A DNA stretch of 64,000 nt, from NCBI GenBank assembly GCA_004299485.1, contig SCQP01000020.1, forward strand, positions 62,001 to 126,000, given 5' to 3'. This document shows, piece after piece, positions 54,710-63,624 of this stretch. A program made the translations under genes and the position numbers. The notes under the pieces were generated by a model. That model saw nothing but the letters and a program-made list of their open reading frames with translations, did no database searches and was not told where the DNA came from. Numbering within the stretch: position 1 is the stretch's first letter; each line of letters begins with the position of its first letter. The DNA comes from Acidobacteriota bacterium. GTDB lineage: Bacteria > Acidobacteriota > Terriglobia > Terriglobales > SCQP01.

Positions 54710-57220
54710 ATGCGCGAGTTGAAACTTGCTGTCCGCCGCCTGGCCCATGAGCGCGCCTTTGCCTTGGTGGCGATCATCACGCTGGCAGTCGGCATCGGCG
54801 CCAATACAGCCATCTTCTCGATTGTGGATGGCGCCCTGCTACGTCCCCTCAATTTTCCGCAGCCGCAACAGCTCGTCTTCCTGGCGCAGTCGATTCCGCA
54901 ATTCACGGGCAAGTACCCCTTCTTCCCGGTGAATGCCCGTGCCTACCATCAGTGGCAGCAGCACTCGCAACTGATCACCAACATTGGCCTCATGCAGCCT
55001 AACAGTTGGGTGCTGACGGCGTACGGATCGCGTCCGCGCCAGGTGTATGGCGCCGACATTTCGGCCACCATGTTTCCAACCCTCGGCGTGACGCCGGAGC
55101 TTGGCCGCAACTTTACCGACGCCGAGGATCAACCCGGCAAGACGCACGAGATCATCCTTTCCGACGCCTTTTGGCGCGGTGAATTCCACACCGACCCCGC
55201 CATCCTCGGCAAAACCGTCGATCTTGACGGCCACCCCAACGTCATTGTGGGCGTCATGCCGGCATCGCTGCATTTTCCTAACGCCACCCAACTCATGCCC
55301 TTGTTTGGCGGGTCGACGGACCACCCGGTGCAGGTCTTCCAGCCCGCGGGCATTAACTTCGCCAAGGCGCAGAATGTGGGCAACTTCAACGAGATCGTTT
55401 TTGCCCGTAAGCGGACGGGTGTGAGCGATGCGCGCCTGCGCGCAGAATTCAACGTGATTGAAGCCAACTTCCTGGCCGCCACGCATGCGCCCGCTCATCT
55501 GACTGTCAATACGGTAGTCATACCGCTGCGCGACCAGATTGTGGGTAGTAGTGGTTTTGGGCTCTGGCTGCTGCTGGCCGCCGTCGGCGCCATTCTGCTG
55601 ATCGTGTGCCTGAACCTGGCCAATCTATTGCTCGTCCGGGTTCACGCGCGCGGGCACGAGCTTGCCATCCGGGTTGCTCTGGGCGCGGGCAAAGCCCGGC
55701 TGGTGCGGGAAACGGTGGTCGAAGGCGTGGTGCTCGCCGGCATCGGCGGGTTGATCGGTATCGTGGCTGCCTGGGCAGCGTTGCGCTGGCTCGTCTCCGC
55801 TGCTCCGGCGGGCATTCCACGGCTCGACGAGATCGGCCTCAATCCTGTCGTCCTCCTCTTCGCCATCGTGCTGGCTTTGCTCTGCGGGGTGGTCTTCAGC
55901 ATCTGGCCTGCGCTGCGCTCCGCCAATGCCGATCCGCAGTCGGCCCTACGTTCCGGAGGCCGCAGCGCCAGCGATTCCGGTAAAGGCATGCGGACGCGTT
56001 CGTGGCTGGTAGGCGCGCAGGCGTTTCTGGCGGCACTGTTGCTCATCGTGGCGGGTCTGCTCGCCGCCAGCTATCTCGATTTGCTCGGCGTCAACAAAGG
56101 CTTTCAGGATCAGCACGTCGTTGAAACCGGCATTGTCTGGCCCGGCAATCATGCCCAGCGCGCGGCCTTCTATCACGGCGTGCTCGCCAAGCTCGCGGCG
56201 CTTCCGGGCGTCCAGACGGTCGGACTGATAGACAACCTGCCCACGCAGGGCACCAACGACACCGATCTGCTTTCGCGTCCAGACGACACCCGCCCGCTGG
56301 TCGACCGCCCCTTGGCCGTGTTTAGCTCCGTCAGCCCGGACTACTTTAAGGCGGTCGGCATTCCCATGTTGCGTGGCCGGACGTTTACCGATGCCGAAGT
56401 CGCCTCGGCACTGCAGGCGGCACTCGCGCCCGCCAACAACAGCAATCAGCCGGTCGATCTCACTAAGGGCTTCGGCCCAGGTCCCAGCATGGCAGCCGTC
56501 GTTTCTGCCACTACCGCTGCCGAGCAGTGGCCCGGCCAGGATCCCATCGGCAAGATCTTCCGCAACGCCGATCCGACCGGCCCTATTTTTCACGTGATTG
56601 GGGTGGTCGGCGACGTCCGCACCATGGGCCTCGAAGCCAAGCCCGGCATGCAAGTCTATTTGCCCTACACCTGGAATGAGCCCGGCGGCGTCGCCATCGC
56701 CCTCAAAACCGACGCGCCACTTGCGGCGCTGGCGCCACGCATCCGCGAGACGGTTTGGAGCGTGCAGCCCGACGCAGCCGTTACGAAGATTGAGACCCTG
56801 GCCAGCCTCGTGAGCTCCTCGGTCAGTCCGCGCCGCTTCCAGATGGCGCTGGTCATCGCCTTCGCGCTCTGTGCGCTCTTCCTCGCTGCCCTCGGCATTT
56901 ACGGCGTGATCGCGTACTCAATTGAGCGCCGCACCGGCGAAATCAGCATCCGCATGACCATGGGCGCGCGCGCCGGGCACCTGGTTCGCATGGTGATGCG
57001 CCAGGGCCTCACACCGGTGATCGCAGGATTGATTCTGGGCATCATTGCCGCACTGGCATCGGGCAAGCTCCTGGCCAGCCTGCTGTTTGGCGTCCACGCC
57101 ACTGATCCGGCAGTCATTCTGATTGTGGCCCCGGTGCTGCTGGGCGTGGGCGCGTTGGCTTGCGCCATCCCCGCCCGCCGCGCCACCCGCATCAATCCAG
57201 TCAATGTGCTGCGGAGCTAA
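54710..57220 (+). CDS. FtsX/MacB-like permease, acidobacterial duplicated type
   Basis: The 836-residue protein has two FtsX-type halves. The first begins with RELKLAVRRLAHERAFALVA and the conserved [20 protein letters not shown], a MacB-like periplasmic domain (about 60-260) and three helices with HELAIRVALGAGKARLVRE. The second repeats the plan, ending with IERRTGEISIRMTMGARAGHLVRMV and RATRINPVNVLRS. This 'duplicated orphan permease' class has no ATPase in cis and is a hallmark of acidobacteria. Role unknown; export or signalling is suggested. A close relative lies at 61180-63624. The end overlaps the convergent helicase gene by 20 bp. Confidence 0.88.
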   Translation: MRELKLAVRRLAHERAFALVAIITLAVGIGANTAIFSIVDGALLRPLNFPQPQQLVFLAQSIPQFTGKYPFFPVNARAYHQWQQHSQLITNIGLMQPNSWVLTAYGSRPRQVYGADISATMFPTLGVTPELGRNFTDAEDQPGKTHEIILSDAFWRGEFHTDPAILGKTVDLDGHPNVIVGVMPASLHFPNATQLMPLFGGSTDHPVQVFQPAGINFAKAQNVGNFNEIVFARKRTGVSDARLRAEFNVIEANFLAATHAPAHLTVNTVVIPLRDQIVGSSGFGLWLLLAAVGAILLIVCLNLANLLLVRVHARGHELAIRVALGAGKARLVRETVVEGVVLAGIGGLIGIVAAWAALRWLVSAAPAGIPRLDEIGLNPVVLLFAIVLALLCGVVFSIWPALRSANADPQSALRSGGRSASDSGKGMRTRSWLVGAQAFLAALLLIVAGLLAASYLDLLGVNKGFQDQHVVETGIVWPGNHAQRAAFYHGVLAKLAALPGVQTVGLIDNLPTQGTNDTDLLSRPDDTRPLVDRPLAVFSSVSPDYFKAVGIPMLRGRTFTDAEVASALQAALAPANNSNQPVDLTKGFGPGPSMAAVVSATTAAEQWPGQDPIGKIFRNADPTGPIFHVIGVVGDVRTMGLEAKPGMQVYLPYTWNEPGGVAIALKTDAPLAALAPRIRETVWSVQPDAAVTKIETLASLVSSSVSPRRFQMALVIAFALCALFLAALGIYGVIAYSIERRTGEISIRMTMGARAGHLVRMVMRQGLTPVIAGLILGIIAALASGKLLASLLFGVHATDPAVILIVAPVLLGVGALACAIPARRATRINPVNVLRS

Positions 57221-59144
57221 CCGCGCCAAAAAACTCGACGACGGCGTCACGTTGCGCGGTGCGCGGAAACGGAGGCAGGCTGGCGAGGAAGGTGCGGCCG
57301 TAGGGCTTGCTGGTGATGCGGCGATCGAGGACGGTGAGCACGCCGCGGTCGCGCGTCGAGCGGATGAGCCGCCCTAAACCCTGCTTCAGCGTCAGCACTG
57401 CCTCCGGAATCTGAAATTCCGTGAATGGGTTGCGGCCCTCGTTCCGCAACAGGGCAATGCGAGCGGCGATAACGGGGTCGCTGGGCGAGGCGAAGGGCAG
57501 CCGGTCGATGATCACCAGACTCAACTGCTCGCCGGGCACATCCACACCCTGCCAAAAGCTGCTCGTCGCTACCAGCACCGCGCCGGGCGTCGCACGGAAG
57601 CGCTCCAGCAAGAGATTCCGCGGCGCCGTGCCCTGGACCAGCAGCGGATATTCCATCCGGCCTGCCAGCAGCTTGGCGAAGGCCTCCATCTGCCGCAGGC
57701 TGGTACACAGTACAAACGCCCGGCCGCGCGAGGCCTCGATCAACTTGATGATTTCCTCACCCGCGGCCGCCGTGAACTCGGGTGCGTTTGGTTCGGGCAG
57801 GTGTTCGGGCAGATAGAGCAGCGCCTGGCGCTCGTAGGCGAACGGTGATGCGACGATGCACTCGTGCGCGTGCTCCAGACCGAGCCGCTGCCGCATGTAG
57901 TCGAAGTTCTCCTCAACCGTCAGCGTGGCTGAGGTGAGAATCACCGTGTCGGTCGCCTCAAACAAAAGCTCGCGGATGCGGTCGGCCACCTGAATCGGCG
58001 AAGCCTGCACGAACACGCCCCGGCCGCGCCGCTCGACCCAGTACACCACGCCTTCTTCTTCAGACTCCATCAGGTAGGCGAGCTTGCTGCGTGCCTCGGC
58101 CAGCCGCCGCAGGCTGACGTGAATCTCTTCTGGCTTGTCGTCGATTGCCTCCAGGCCGCTGGCGATGTAGTCAACGCCGTTCATGAAGCCGTCGTAGAGT
58201 TCCTCGTGATCGATCAGGAACTTCTCGCGCTCCGTCAGCGGCGTGCGGCCTTCTCCTTTGGCAAGCGCAAGAAAAAACTTCTGAGCCGCGATCCGCCAGT
58301 GCTCGATGCGTTGCTGCAGTTCGGGCGACGTGTGGCCGCTGCTGCGCAATGTGATGGCGACGTCGCGCGCCAGCTCTTCGATCTGATGGCTGCTGACCGC
58401 GATACCAAAGTACTGCGAAGCGGCGCTTTCCAGTTCGTGGGCCTCGTCGAAGACAACGGCTTCATAGGGCGGCAGAACGCCGGGCAGGTCCTGGCCCTTG
58501 AGCACGAGGTCGGCAAAGAATAAATGGTGATTCACGACCACCAGGTCGGCCTCGGATGCGCGCTGTCGCAGGCGCGTCAGAAAACAGTTTTCATATAGCG
58601 GACACTTCGAGCCGGTGCAGCTTTCCTTGCGGGCGCTCAGCCGGTTCCAGAGCGGTGAACTTTCCGGCAGGAAATCCAGCTCCGCCTGATCGCCGGTCGG
58701 GCTGGTCTCGGCCCATTGCCGGATGCGCCGGTACTGTTCCAGCTCCTCCAGCGCGAGCAGCGCGGGCTGGACTTCGAGTTCACGAATCTTATGCAGGCAG
58801 GCATAATTCTGCCGCCCCTTGACGGTCACGACGTTGAGCTCGCGCCCCAGAGCTGCCGCCAGCAGCGGCACATCCTTCTGAACGAGCTGCTCCTGCAGAT
58901 TTTTGGTGCCCGTCGAAAGCAACACTCTGCGCCCGCTGAGTAGCACCGGCAACAGATAGGCGAGCGTTTTACCGGTTCCGGTTCCGGCCTCGACCAGCAG
59001 ATGATGCCGCTCGCGCAGCGCCAGCGCGACCTCCTGCGCCATATCGAGCTGGCCCGGCCGCTGTTCATATGCCGGGTGAGCCCTCTGAAGCAAGCCCCCG
59101 CGCCCGAAAAATTCGTAGAGCGGCGACTGTGCGGTTGAGGTCAT
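57201..59144 (-). CDS. ATP-dependent DNA helicase, DinG/XPD-like
   Basis: The 647-residue superfamily-2 helicase has Walker A in EAGTGTGKTLAYLLPVLL, the DEAH box VFDEAHELES, an iron-sulfur-type cysteine set between motifs Ia and II (CLHKIRE, then CTGSKCPLYENC), TSATLTVEENFDYM (motif III), SFWQGVDVPGEQL (motif V) and the final motif QGLGRLIRSTRDRG. This is the DinG/YoaA form, unwinding D-loops, R-loops or stalled forks 5' to 3'. There is no exonuclease domain. TACACT lies 5 bases before the ATG. It is divergent from an ACP-like gene with overlapping -10 boxes. Confidence 0.9.
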   Translation of the reverse strand: MTSTAQSPLYEFFGRGGLLQRAHPAYEQRPGQLDMAQEVALALRERHHLLVEAGTGTGKTLAYLLPVLLSGRRVLLSTGTKNLQEQLVQKDVPLLAAALGRELNVVTVKGRQNYACLHKIRELEVQPALLALEELEQYRRIRQWAETSPTGDQAELDFLPESSPLWNRLSARKESCTGSKCPLYENCFLTRLRQRASEADLVVVNHHLFFADLVLKGQDLPGVLPPYEAVVFDEAHELESAASQYFGIAVSSHQIEELARDVAITLRSSGHTSPELQQRIEHWRIAAQKFFLALAKGEGRTPLTEREKFLIDHEELYDGFMNGVDYIASGLEAIDDKPEEIHVSLRRLAEARSKLAYLMESEEEGVVYWVERRGRGVFVQASPIQVADRIRELLFEATDTVILTSATLTVEENFDYMRQRLGLEHAHECIVASPFAYERQALLYLPEHLPEPNAPEFTAAAGEEIIKLIEASRGRAFVLCTSLRQMEAFAKLLAGRMEYPLLVQGTAPRNLLLERFRATPGAVLVATSSFWQGVDVPGEQLSLVIIDRLPFASPSDPVIAARIALLRNEGRNPFTEFQIPEAVLTLKQGLGRLIRSTRDRGVLTVLDRRITSKPYGRTFLASLPPFPRTAQRDAVVEFFGAVSSAAH

Positions 59145-59149
59145 AAGCC

Positions 59150-59159
59150 AGTGTAAAAT
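59150..59159. promoter_or_regulatory. overlapping divergent -10 boxes (helicase / ACP-like gene)
   Basis: Minus-strand TACACT (59155-59150) lies 5 bases before the helicase ATG; plus-strand TAAAAT (59154-59159) lies 8 bases before the ACP-like ATG. The hexamers share 2 bp, exactly as in the pair at 53335-53344. Only 23 bp separate the two start codons, leaving no room for leaders. Confidence 0.5.
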
Positions 59160-59167
59160 GAACGTTT

Positions 59168-59659
59168 ATGGCCAAGCCACCGTCATCGAAAGCCTCCAAG
59201 CACAACGGCAAGCCTGCCAAAACCGTACGGGCCGGCGAAAACGGCGCCAAAACACCCAAGAGTGCCAAGAACGGGAAGGATGGCGGTGCAAAACCAGCCC
59301 CAAAGTCCACGCCGGCGGTCAAAAACCAACCCGCTCCCCCCGCCAAGGTGGCCAAAGCTTCCAAGCCGGGAGAAAAGAGACCGCGCCAGCAGACCGAGCT
59401 CGAGGGCAAGCTGATACACATGATCGCCGAAGAGATGGCGATTGAAGAGGCGGAACTTACTCCCGACGCTTCTTTCCGTGAGGATCTCAATCTCGATGAA
59501 ATCGATATCGCCGAGTTGCTCATGCAGGCGGAAGCGCAATTTGGCGTGCATCCTTTTAATGAGTCCGACTGGGAAGCATGTGGGACCATCGGCGAGTTTC
59601 TCGTCCTGGTGAGCAAGCGCGTGGAAGCCAAGCGCAGCCGCAAGGGCGGGAGAGCCTGA
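59168..59659 (+). CDS. acyl-carrier-protein-like domain with Lys/Ala-rich tail, no Ppant serine
   Basis: The 163-residue protein has an N-terminal 80-residue low-complexity arm rich in Lys, Ala and Pro (KTPKSAKNGKDGGAKPAPKS type), similar in composition to histone H1 tails. The C-terminal domain (about 80-150) has the four-helix pattern of acyl carrier proteins: IAEEMAIEEAELTPDASF, DLNLDEIDIAELLMQAEAQF and TIGEFLVLVSKRV. In canonical ACPs the second helix begins G-x-D-S-L-D; here the serine position is Glu111 (LDEID), so it cannot carry phosphopantetheine. It heads a three-gene row with a membrane protein and an NHL protein, divergent from the helicase. A scaffold role, perhaps DNA-bound through the basic arm, is speculation. 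Confidence 0.8.
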   Translation: MAKPPSSKASKHNGKPAKTVRAGENGAKTPKSAKNGKDGGAKPAPKSTPAVKNQPAPPAKVAKASKPGEKRPRQQTELEGKLIHMIAEEMAIEEAELTPDASFREDLNLDEIDIAELLMQAEAQFGVHPFNESDWEACGTIGEFLVLVSKRVEAKRSRKGGRA

Positions 59660-60247
59660 TTGGCGCGCAAGAAGCGGGCTGGCCGCGTCGGTAACGGGCT
59701 GATCATTGTTATTGCCCTTGTGATCGTGGCCGCAGTCTTGTTTTTTGCTCTCCACGACGGTTCGTGGAACCACTTCCGCACTGACCTGTTCGGCTCGCAT
59801 CGCAGTACGGCCATCGTCCACCGTCCCTGTGGCGCGCCGCTGCCGAAACTGCTGGGAGGCGCGGTCGCGGCCTCGCGCGCAGCCAAGTTCGCTACGGTAG
59901 AACAGATCGAGCAGCTTACGCCTGGCGCCTCGGTCCCGGTCTACCGCGTGCAGGCCCGATTGCTCGGTGTGAACGAAGACGGCAATGAGATCCGGCTGGA
60001 GCTGGGGTCGCTGGTCAATCCCCGGGTTAGGCTCGATGCCTATGTTCCCGCCAGCGGCTGTGGCGCGACGCAGGAAGACACGGCTCTGTACGAGGAGCTG
60101 CGCGAAGTCATCGGCCTACGCTTCGGCCCGTTGCACACTGCGCTCGCGGCTCCCTCACAGCCCACCCGGGTCATCGCCATCGGCGCGGTGGTAGCTGGAC
60201 CTCATGGCCCTGAACTCCGGCCGCTGCTCGATCTCCACGTCCAATGA
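59660..60247 (+). CDS. single-span membrane protein of unknown function
   Basis: A 195-residue product starting at TTG immediately after the ACP-like stop; GGCGGGAGAG lies upstream. It has a basic start (ARKKRAGR), one membrane helix (LIIVIALVIVAAVLFFAL) and an outside domain of about 160 residues (TPGASVPVYRVQARLLGVNE, EIRLELGSLVNPRVRLDAYV) that looks like a small beta-fold. Two cysteines (CGAPLPK, SGCGATQ) might form a disulfide. I recognise no family. The next gene overlaps its stop by 4 bp. Confidence 0.65.
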   Translation: MARKKRAGRVGNGLIIVIALVIVAAVLFFALHDGSWNHFRTDLFGSHRSTAIVHRPCGAPLPKLLGGAVAASRAAKFATVEQIEQLTPGASVPVYRVQARLLGVNEDGNEIRLELGSLVNPRVRLDAYVPASGCGATQEDTALYEELREVIGLRFGPLHTALAAPSQPTRVIAIGAVVAGPHGPELRPLLDLHVQ

Positions 60248-61107: not shown

Positions 61108-61179
61108 ACTCACGAACAGGAAAAGTTTTCGGTAACCGCCGCACTTTTGCCGGGTTCCTGCGTATTAGAGAACAGGACC

Positions 61180-63624
61180 ATGGGGAAAGACCTTCGCTTC
61201 GCCGTCCGCATGCTACGCCGCTCGCCCGGCTTCACGATTCTGGCGGTCGTCGTGCTGGCGCTGGGCATTGGCGCCAACACCGCTATCTTCAGCATGATCA
61301 ATGCGATCCTGCTGCAGCCGCTGCCCTATGCGCATCCGCAGCAGCTCGTCCAGATGTACGAAACCGAGCGCGCGCCGGGAAGCTACCCGTTATCCGGTCC
61401 CGATTTCCCCGATTGGCAGCGCCAGAGCAAGCTGTTCGCGGCGATGACGCTGTACAACTATCCGCACAACGTCAATCTCACCGGCAACGGCGCGCCGCAG
61501 CAGGTGGCTATGGTTCCAGCGGAGGCGAATTTCTTCCAGGTGCTTGGCGTGCAGGCCGCTCTCGGCCGCATGTTCCAGCCGGGAGATAGCGATAGCGTCG
61601 CGGTCCTCAGCTACGCCTTCTGGAAATCGCAGTTCGGCGGCGCGCGCAGCGTCCTCAACCGTGCGATCACGCTCGACGGTAAAAGCTACACCATCATCGG
61701 CGTGACTGCCGCGAAATTTCGGCTGTCGGGCTACTTCAACAGAGCCCAGCTTTGGAGGCCCCTGCCGCTCACTGCGCCGTATCTTGGCCAGCGCGGCAAC
61801 CACAGCTTCAGTGCTATCGGCCGCATGAAGCCCGGCGTCACGCTGGCGCAGGCGCAAGCCGAAATCTCGGCCATTGCGGCGCGCCTGGCGCAGCAATATC
61901 CAGACTCAAACGCCACTACGGGCGCCAAACTCGATCTTCTGCGCGACCGCATGGTGCGTGCGCCGCAGCGCGCGTCACTGCTGACGCTGCTCGGCGTCGT
62001 CGCCCTGGTGCTGCTGATTGCCTGCGCCAACCTGGCGAATATGCTGTTGGCTCGTGCTCTCGGACGGCAAAAGGAAATCTCGATCCGGTTGGCGCTGGGC
62101 GCGCGCCGGAGTCACATCCTGCGCCAGTTGCTCACCGAATCCGTATTGCTTTCGCTGCTCGGCGCCGCCTTCGGCGCCATGCTTGCCTGGCTCGGGATCC
62201 GTGCGGTGGTTGGCTTGAGCGCGTTCACGCTGCCCCAAGTCAACCCCATCGCGGTGAACGGCACAGTGCTGGCGTTCACGGTCGTGCTGGCCATGGTTTG
62301 CGGCATTCTGTTTGGCCTGGCGCCGGCGCTGCAGCTCTCGCATCCCCGCCTCAGCGACGAGCTCAGCGGCGCGGGCACGCTGGCCGGCGCAGGACGCCGC
62401 CGCCGCTGGCTCAGCGATGGGCTGATCATCGCCGAAGTGGCGCTCTCGATGCTGCTGGTCGTCGCCGCTGGAGTGTTCATGCAAAGTTTTTCCCGCTTGC
62501 GCAACAGCGCCCTCGGCGTCAACCCCAACCACCTGCTGATCGCTCAGCTCAGCCTGCCGGATGCGCGCTATAAAAGCCCCGCCGTCATTCAATTCCATCG
62601 CACCCTGCTCGCCCGCCTGCGTGCCCTGCCCGGCATCACGCAAGCGGCGACCTCGGGGTCCATTCCCCTCAACGGCGAAAGCAACGGCTACATCACTCTT
62701 CCGGGTGAGAGCACACAAAGCAAGACCCTGGTCGAGTGGGTCCGCGCCACGCCGAGCTATTTCGCCACCATGCAAATCCCGCTCCTGCGTGGCAGCACCT
62801 ACACGTCCGCCGATGTGCAAGCCTGGGATCACTTCATCACAGCCGCCTTTGGCCGCGGTGGGGCGCTGCAGTTGACCGCCGCTCAGATGGCCAGTTACCA
62901 CCTTCAGGTCGTCGTCAATCAGGCTATGGCCGATCATTTCTGGCCCGGCCGGAATCCGCTCGGCAAGCGATTCCAGGGGTGGGGAACCTGGCTGACGATC
63001 AAAGGCGTGGTGGGCACGGTTGCGGTCAATCAACTGGGAGAGGCTCCCTGGCCGGTGACCTACTTCCCCTTGGGAAACATGGATACCGGCTTCTACGTTG
63101 AACTCCGCTCCTCACTTCCTGCGGCCGCGGTGACTGCCGATTTGCGGCGCACGGTTGCCGGCATCGACGCCAGCTTGCCGCTCTACGGTATTCAGACTAT
63201 GGATCAGGTGGCCGGCGCCTCAGTCGCCGGTGAGGCTTTTCAAGAATGGCTCATGACCGGCTTTGCTGCGCTTGCTTTGCTGCTTGCCGTCGCCGGCATT
63301 TACGGGGTGATGTCGTATCTGGTGACGGCGCGCACGCGGGAGATCGGCGTGCGCGTCGCGCTCGGTGCTTCGCGCAGCTCGGTTCTGGGCATGGTCATCG
63401 GCCGCGGCCTGCGCCTCGGTATTATCGGCATAGTTTGCGGCCTCATCGCCGCGCTCGCGGCGGGCAAGCTCATTGCCAGTCAGCTCTATCAGACAAAACC
63501 GGCTAACCCCGTCGCGTTCATCCTGGCCGCTGGCGTGCTGCTCGCGGCCTGCGTCCTCGCCTGCTACGTTCCCGCACTGCGTGCTGCCCGCATCGCTCCC
63601 GCCGAAGCTTTGCGCCAGAACTAG
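61180..63624 (+). CDS. FtsX/MacB-like permease, acidobacterial duplicated type
   Basis: An 814-residue paralogue of the permease at 54710-57220. It begins [20 protein letters not shown] with [20 protein letters not shown], a MacB-like periplasmic domain, the first FtsX helix set ([20 protein letters not shown]), then the second half ending [21 protein letters not shown] and [13 protein letters not shown] use ATG 61180 because it starts the conserved N-terminus and is preceded by CAGGA; an earlier ATG at 61147 adds 11 unrelated residues. There is no ATPase in cis. The NHL operon ends 72 bp upstream. Confidence 0.88.

Follow-up and report, generated by a model that had tools for sequence, protein, structure and literature searches.

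A yoaA helicase gene and a serine-less acyl-carrier-like gene of an acidobacterium are probably transcribed from overlapping leaderless promoters of a known bidirectional class

Bidirectional promoters in bacteria have been defined by divergent transcription starts lying 7-25 bp apart (PMC10268837), and their common classes have starts separated by 18, 10 or 23 bp (PMC12825309). In five E. coli bidirectional promoters with start spacings of 10-23 bp, both directions had too low a basal activity to compete with each other, and competition was seen only upon strong activation of one direction (PMC12825309). In addition, 13.3% of genes in Acidobacteria have been estimated to be leaderless, recognized by the same TANNNT signal that is discussed below (PMC3160421). 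The locus presented here belongs to a window of 64,000 nucleotides, i.e., the whole stretch of DNA that was analyzed, taken from an acidobacterial genome of 3.3 Mb (G000). It comprises the divergent genes of a DNA repair helicase, yoaA, and of an acyl-carrier-like protein, here called ACPL (Table 1). The relatives used for comparison are MAGs deposited as Acidobacteria, Acidobacteriales or Terriglobia.

Table 1. Coordinates of the features at the yoaA/ACPL locus, in window positions.
Feature	Position	Strand	Remarks
yoaA, DinG/XPD-type DNA repair helicase, 647 aa	57201..59144	-	NF053712; Pfam Helicase_C_2
Intergenic gap holding both -10 boxes	59145..59167		23 bp; 37-39 bp in congeners
-10 box TACACT of yoaA	59150..59155	-	5 bp from ATG; read from sequence; TANNNT kept in family
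-10 box TAAAAT of ACPL	59154..59159	+	8 bp from ATG; read from sequence; kept in genus
ACPL, serine-less acyl-carrier-like protein, basic N-terminal tail, 163 aa	59168..59659	+	Pfam PP-binding 28.4 bits
195-aa protein, N-terminal hydrophobic segment, next gene after ACPL	59660..60247	+	only in genus g1

The initial annotation had described a divergent pair separated by a 23-bp gap in which TACACT and TAAAAT have 2 bp in common, a description that proved exact to the base. Inspection of the sequence places the ATG of yoaA at 59144 on the minus strand and that of ACPL at 59168 on the plus strand, while the two -10 elements, read on opposite strands, overlap at 59154-59155 (TA). The first T of TANNNT is found at -11 for yoaA and at -14 for ACPL. 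Since in-frame stops occur upstream of both ATGs, at 7 codons for yoaA and at 2 codons for ACPL, and the stretches from stop to ATG carry no ATG, GTG or TTG, neither gene can start further out. Based on the usual 7-nt spacing, transcription is predicted to begin at 59143 (minus) and 59166 (plus). This corresponds to a separation of 23 bp, which by simple arithmetic entails boxes that overlap by 2 bp, as found at this site. The sequence of the site was also searched for a -35-like partner, and none was found for either box. Similarly, no activator site was found at the overlapping boxes, and the yoaA/ACPL region gave no Rfam match to an RNA element.

Taken as a bare string, the arrangement is not special. 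The pattern CAT-N(3-9)-ANNNTANNNT-N(3-9)-ATG was found at 4 places in 421 kb, where 2.9 would be expected, and ANNNTANNNT alone was met less often than expected within the window. It is the position of the boxes ahead of gene starts, together with the conservation of their distance in relatives, that goes beyond chance, rather than the pattern itself. In 1.15 Mb of G000, 66 of 941 predicted gene starts have a TANNNT whose first T is at -12, compared with a background of 5.6 per position, and the excess summed over -15 to -11 amounts to ~112 genes, or ~12% of the starts sampled; these starts were predicted by a simple codon-usage caller, so that the peak is robust although individual predictions may be wrong. 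Among the leaderless promoters of this genome, the -10 box most often reads TACACT or TAAACT, and the profile of the 66 leaderless promoters revealed no clear -35 signal.

The distance of the boxes from the start codons is also maintained among the relatives. In all 13 family members in which the 5' end of yoaA was found, representing six genera, the first T of a TANNNT box lies at -11 to -15, and 10 of them have it exactly at -12. For ACPL, the position of the box is -14 in each of the five genomes from genus g1, which includes G000. The claim that both boxes stand at leaderless distance, 5 and 8 bp from the respective ATG, is thus upheld by conservation in relatives and by the genome-wide TANNNT peak. 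Given that relatives keep the two boxes, each at its own distance, both are very probably real promoters that are used. One might argue that a single box is used, or that the gap of 23 bp is a sequencing or assembly error, as the bare overlapping pattern occurs at chance frequency and a gap of this length is known from a single genome, which leaves some residual chance of such an error. However, each box is kept at its own distance in relatives, the contig extends over 152 kb and both reading frames are intact, and we consider this explanation very improbable.

The initial annotation had also suggested that conservation of the 23-bp gap be checked, and had named a lack of conservation as an outcome that would refute its reading. 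This outcome was obtained. Three of the four other g1 genomes have a gap of 39 bp and the fourth has one of 38 bp, a chimeric contig has 37 bp, and G009, a member of another genus, has 63 bp. In genus g3 an extra gene separates ACPL from yoaA, placing them ~1.5 kb apart, with each gene retaining its own leaderless box, while in genera g2, g4 and g5 the two genes are on different contigs. The distance from box to box is 12-13 bp in the four congeners and on the chimeric contig, with no overlap, and in G009 the boxes do not overlap either. The chimeric contig, DAIDHU010000522.1 (L187 3950-4507), is labelled Thiomonas and looks like an assembly chimera, in that unrelated genes are fused to an acidobacterial stretch, the gap with the ACPL gene, which makes up its last ~550 bases. 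Because the congeners and the chimeric contig have 37-39 bp and the outgroup G009 has a gap that is longer still, the 23-bp gap and the overlap appear to be a derived state private to G000. A net loss of ~15-16 bp explains this best, and we infer the direction of the change from these comparisons. Short repeats (CAG..TA) are present at the likely ends of the deletion, the exact ends being ambiguous. The promoters of yoaA and ACPL would then be separate modules that were pushed together in G000.

Our preferred explanation, which we hold with a probability of about 0.8, is that two independent leaderless promoters of the sigma-70 type had their boxes joined by a deletion of ~15-16 bp, giving rise to a promoter of the known 23-bp bidirectional class with no measurable interference. 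A TANNNT box a few bases ahead of each start codon would drive yoaA leftward and ACPL rightward, presumably with a sigma-70-type factor. The deletion would have brought the boxes together, the self-complementary TA now being common to both, and the resulting geometry, with predicted starts at 59143 and 59166, would be that of the 23-bp class. RNA polymerase would take one orientation at a time, and at ordinary promoter strength both genes would be transcribed without measurable interference, a property transferred here from the E. coli promoters. It should be mentioned that the 8 bp between the ACPL box and its ATG allow for a leader of 1-2 nt. Furthermore, GGAGGG is found between box and ATG in G004, so that strictly leaderless translation is not certain in that genome.

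RNA polymerase covers roughly -55 to +20 of a promoter. Two footprints would therefore clash at a gap of 39 bp too, and the overlap did not create polymerase exclusion. Two polymerases likely exclude each other at any one moment, and the overlap adds little to this. The earlier statement that only one orientation can be occupied at once is accordingly likely to be correct for any given instant, but, by analogy with E. coli, it is unlikely to matter at ordinary expression. The same annotation had gone further and regarded the helicase and the ACP-like operon as mutually exclusive outputs. Such a regulatory switch would draw on the 2 bp common to the -10 boxes, on the impossibility of simultaneous binding by two polymerases and on the competition documented when one direction is strongly activated (PMC12825309), but the overlap is missing from the four congeners and the chimeric contig, and other genera have the genes unlinked or 1.5 kb apart with the yoaA box retained. 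Moreover, basal competition was absent from the five E. coli promoters tested (PMC12825309), and the site offers neither an activator site nor a -35 box. Mutual exclusion as a function is thus not sustained, and we view a switch acting in G000 as quite unlikely; a conserved switch is rejected, since neither the gap nor the overlap is conserved.

In all five g1 genomes and in G009, yoaA and ACPL are divergent neighbors. It could be proposed that one promoter region keeps the two genes co-expressed as their proteins work together, which would fit this arrangement, the short gaps and the conserved boxes. However, the linkage is lost in g2, g4 and g5 and loosened in g3, and no shared operator was seen, so that co-regulation of this kind is improbable. 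As for the surrounding genes, the gene of the 195-aa protein directly follows ACPL in G002, G003 and G004, and its product matched neither a Pfam nor an NCBIfam family. The yoaA/ACPL pair is flanked by two large ABC-transporter-permease-like genes (54710-57220 and 61147-63624) that belong to one family; copies 34-58% identical exist in relatives, and relatives of these genes are also located beside the region in G001 and G003.

The configuration recurs in the same genome. Among the 137 divergent pairs in 1.15 Mb of G000, two, yoaA/ACPL included, combine a 23-bp gap with a 2-bp box overlap. The second pair (G000:C20:11044-11068; L103 11044-11068) carries CATTTGACCAGTGTACAATCCGGCCTATG / AGTGTACAAT between unrelated genes, and its plus gene was found to have no full-length relative in the family. 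A further pair has overlapping -10 boxes in a gap of 17 bp (G000:C7 77429-77447; L110 17429-17447), matching the 18-bp class. Judged by eye, the genes of this 17-bp pair are cobalamin adenosyltransferase-like and LarE-like. Three of 137 divergent pairs suggest a small class with overlapping boxes. A more general rule of quantized gaps, with enrichment near 17 and 22-23 bp among divergent pairs, was also considered, but the cases are too few for it to be claimed. In G007, none of the divergent pairs had a gap in the range of 0 to 60 bp.

With regard to the genes themselves, the DNA repair helicase proposed for one side was confirmed as YoaA, which scores 776.7 bits against the NCBIfam equivalog NF053712 (cut-off 680). 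Its translation carries four cysteines between helicase motifs, as in iron-sulfur helicases. The gene is present in 59 of the 60 genomes searched, and a plasmid search with yoaA returned no match.

The proposal of a basic ACP-like partner was supported as well, both by the Pfam match (Table 1) and by the pI of 10.8 of the tail in the window's protein. The ACPL domain is acidic (pI ~4.2), and the tail is a basic, lysine-rich stretch of Lys/Ala/Pro, which is N-terminal in g1 and g4 and C-terminal in g2, g3 and g5. An HMM match to solved ACP chains was obtained at 1e-14. In addition, the best PDB matches of the predicted model (residues 73-160) are ACPs, with Z of 9.4 to 7.5 over 68-84 residues, values that small helical bundles readily reach, so that the sequence match weighs most. 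In the model, which has a mean pLDDT of only 66, the N-terminal tail is predicted to be unstructured. Taken together, the sequence match and the model point to a four-helix ACP fold. In all 14 genomes of the family (L031-L044), the phosphopantetheine serine (DSL) is replaced by Glu, or by Asp in two of them, giving LDEID or LDDID; the window's protein reads LDEID where DSL is expected. By known chemistry ACPL cannot carry phosphopantetheine, and judging from its residues it therefore does not qualify as a functional ACP of the usual kind. Most of these 14 genomes also contain a normal AcpP with DSL. The best matches inspected in other families were ordinary AcpP with DSL, and a scan of 84,980 genomes with a strict pattern recovered ACPL only from family members and the one chimeric contig. 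No report on serine-less ACPs of this type was found among open-access papers.

The neighbors of ACPL, named from sequence reading, vary among genera. They include yoaA in g1 and g6, whereas in g4 the neighbors are pepA-, purE- and purK-like genes, here too named by reading and not by family search. In g2 (L068, L072), the ACPL gene, again with names from sequence reading, lies between prmC- and dprA-like genes, followed by topA. Based on the basic tail and the DNA-related neighbors, a DNA-linked role of ACPL is thinkable, no more. A more specific version, in which ACPL would be a DNA- or nucleoid-associated ACP paralogue with a histone-H1-like basic tail on an acidic domain and a partner of YoaA, located near DprA and topoisomerase I elsewhere, is improbable. 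If it were true, the shared leaderless promoter in G000 would co-produce two partners.

We regard the yoaA/ACPL site as a known kind of two-way promoter and not as a conserved switch. It nevertheless constitutes a natural experiment, as the same promoters overlap in G000 and are separated by 12-13 bp in sister species, which would allow a direct measurement of what overlap costs or gains. The site further suggests that, where leaderless genes abound in a genome, the distance between the two starts of a bidirectional promoter can determine how long the entire intergenic gap is. The serine-less ACP family, found in one acidobacterial family and nowhere else in the searches run, is the more unusual part and merits follow-up.

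When compared with described systems, the helicase falls in the same NCBIfam equivalog as YoaA of E. coli (e.g., PMC9826845), while its genomic setting in the acidobacterial genome differs. ACPL resembles the acyl carrier protein AcpP in sequence and in its predicted four-helix ACP fold, but it lacks the DSL serine, bears a basic Lys/Ala/Pro tail at either end and coexists with a normal AcpP. The promoters share motif and distance with the leaderless genes having TANNNT ~12 bp before the start, likewise in a high-GC genome (Zheng et al., 2011, PMC3160421), and the leaderless share of ~12% in the window's genome is comparable to the 13.3% given there for Acidobacteria; in contrast to those genes, yoaA/ACPL carries a pair of these signals, which overlap in a head-to-head arrangement. 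Finally, as in the bacterial bidirectional promoters of Warman, Grainger and colleagues (PMC12825309, PMC10268837), the yoaA/ACPL site lies between divergent genes and has overlapping -10 boxes on the two strands, and the start separation of 23 bp, predicted from the box positions, is that of one common class. Unlike those promoters, both yoaA/ACPL transcripts are predicted to be leaderless, no -35 boxes were seen, and the promoter would fill the entire gap.
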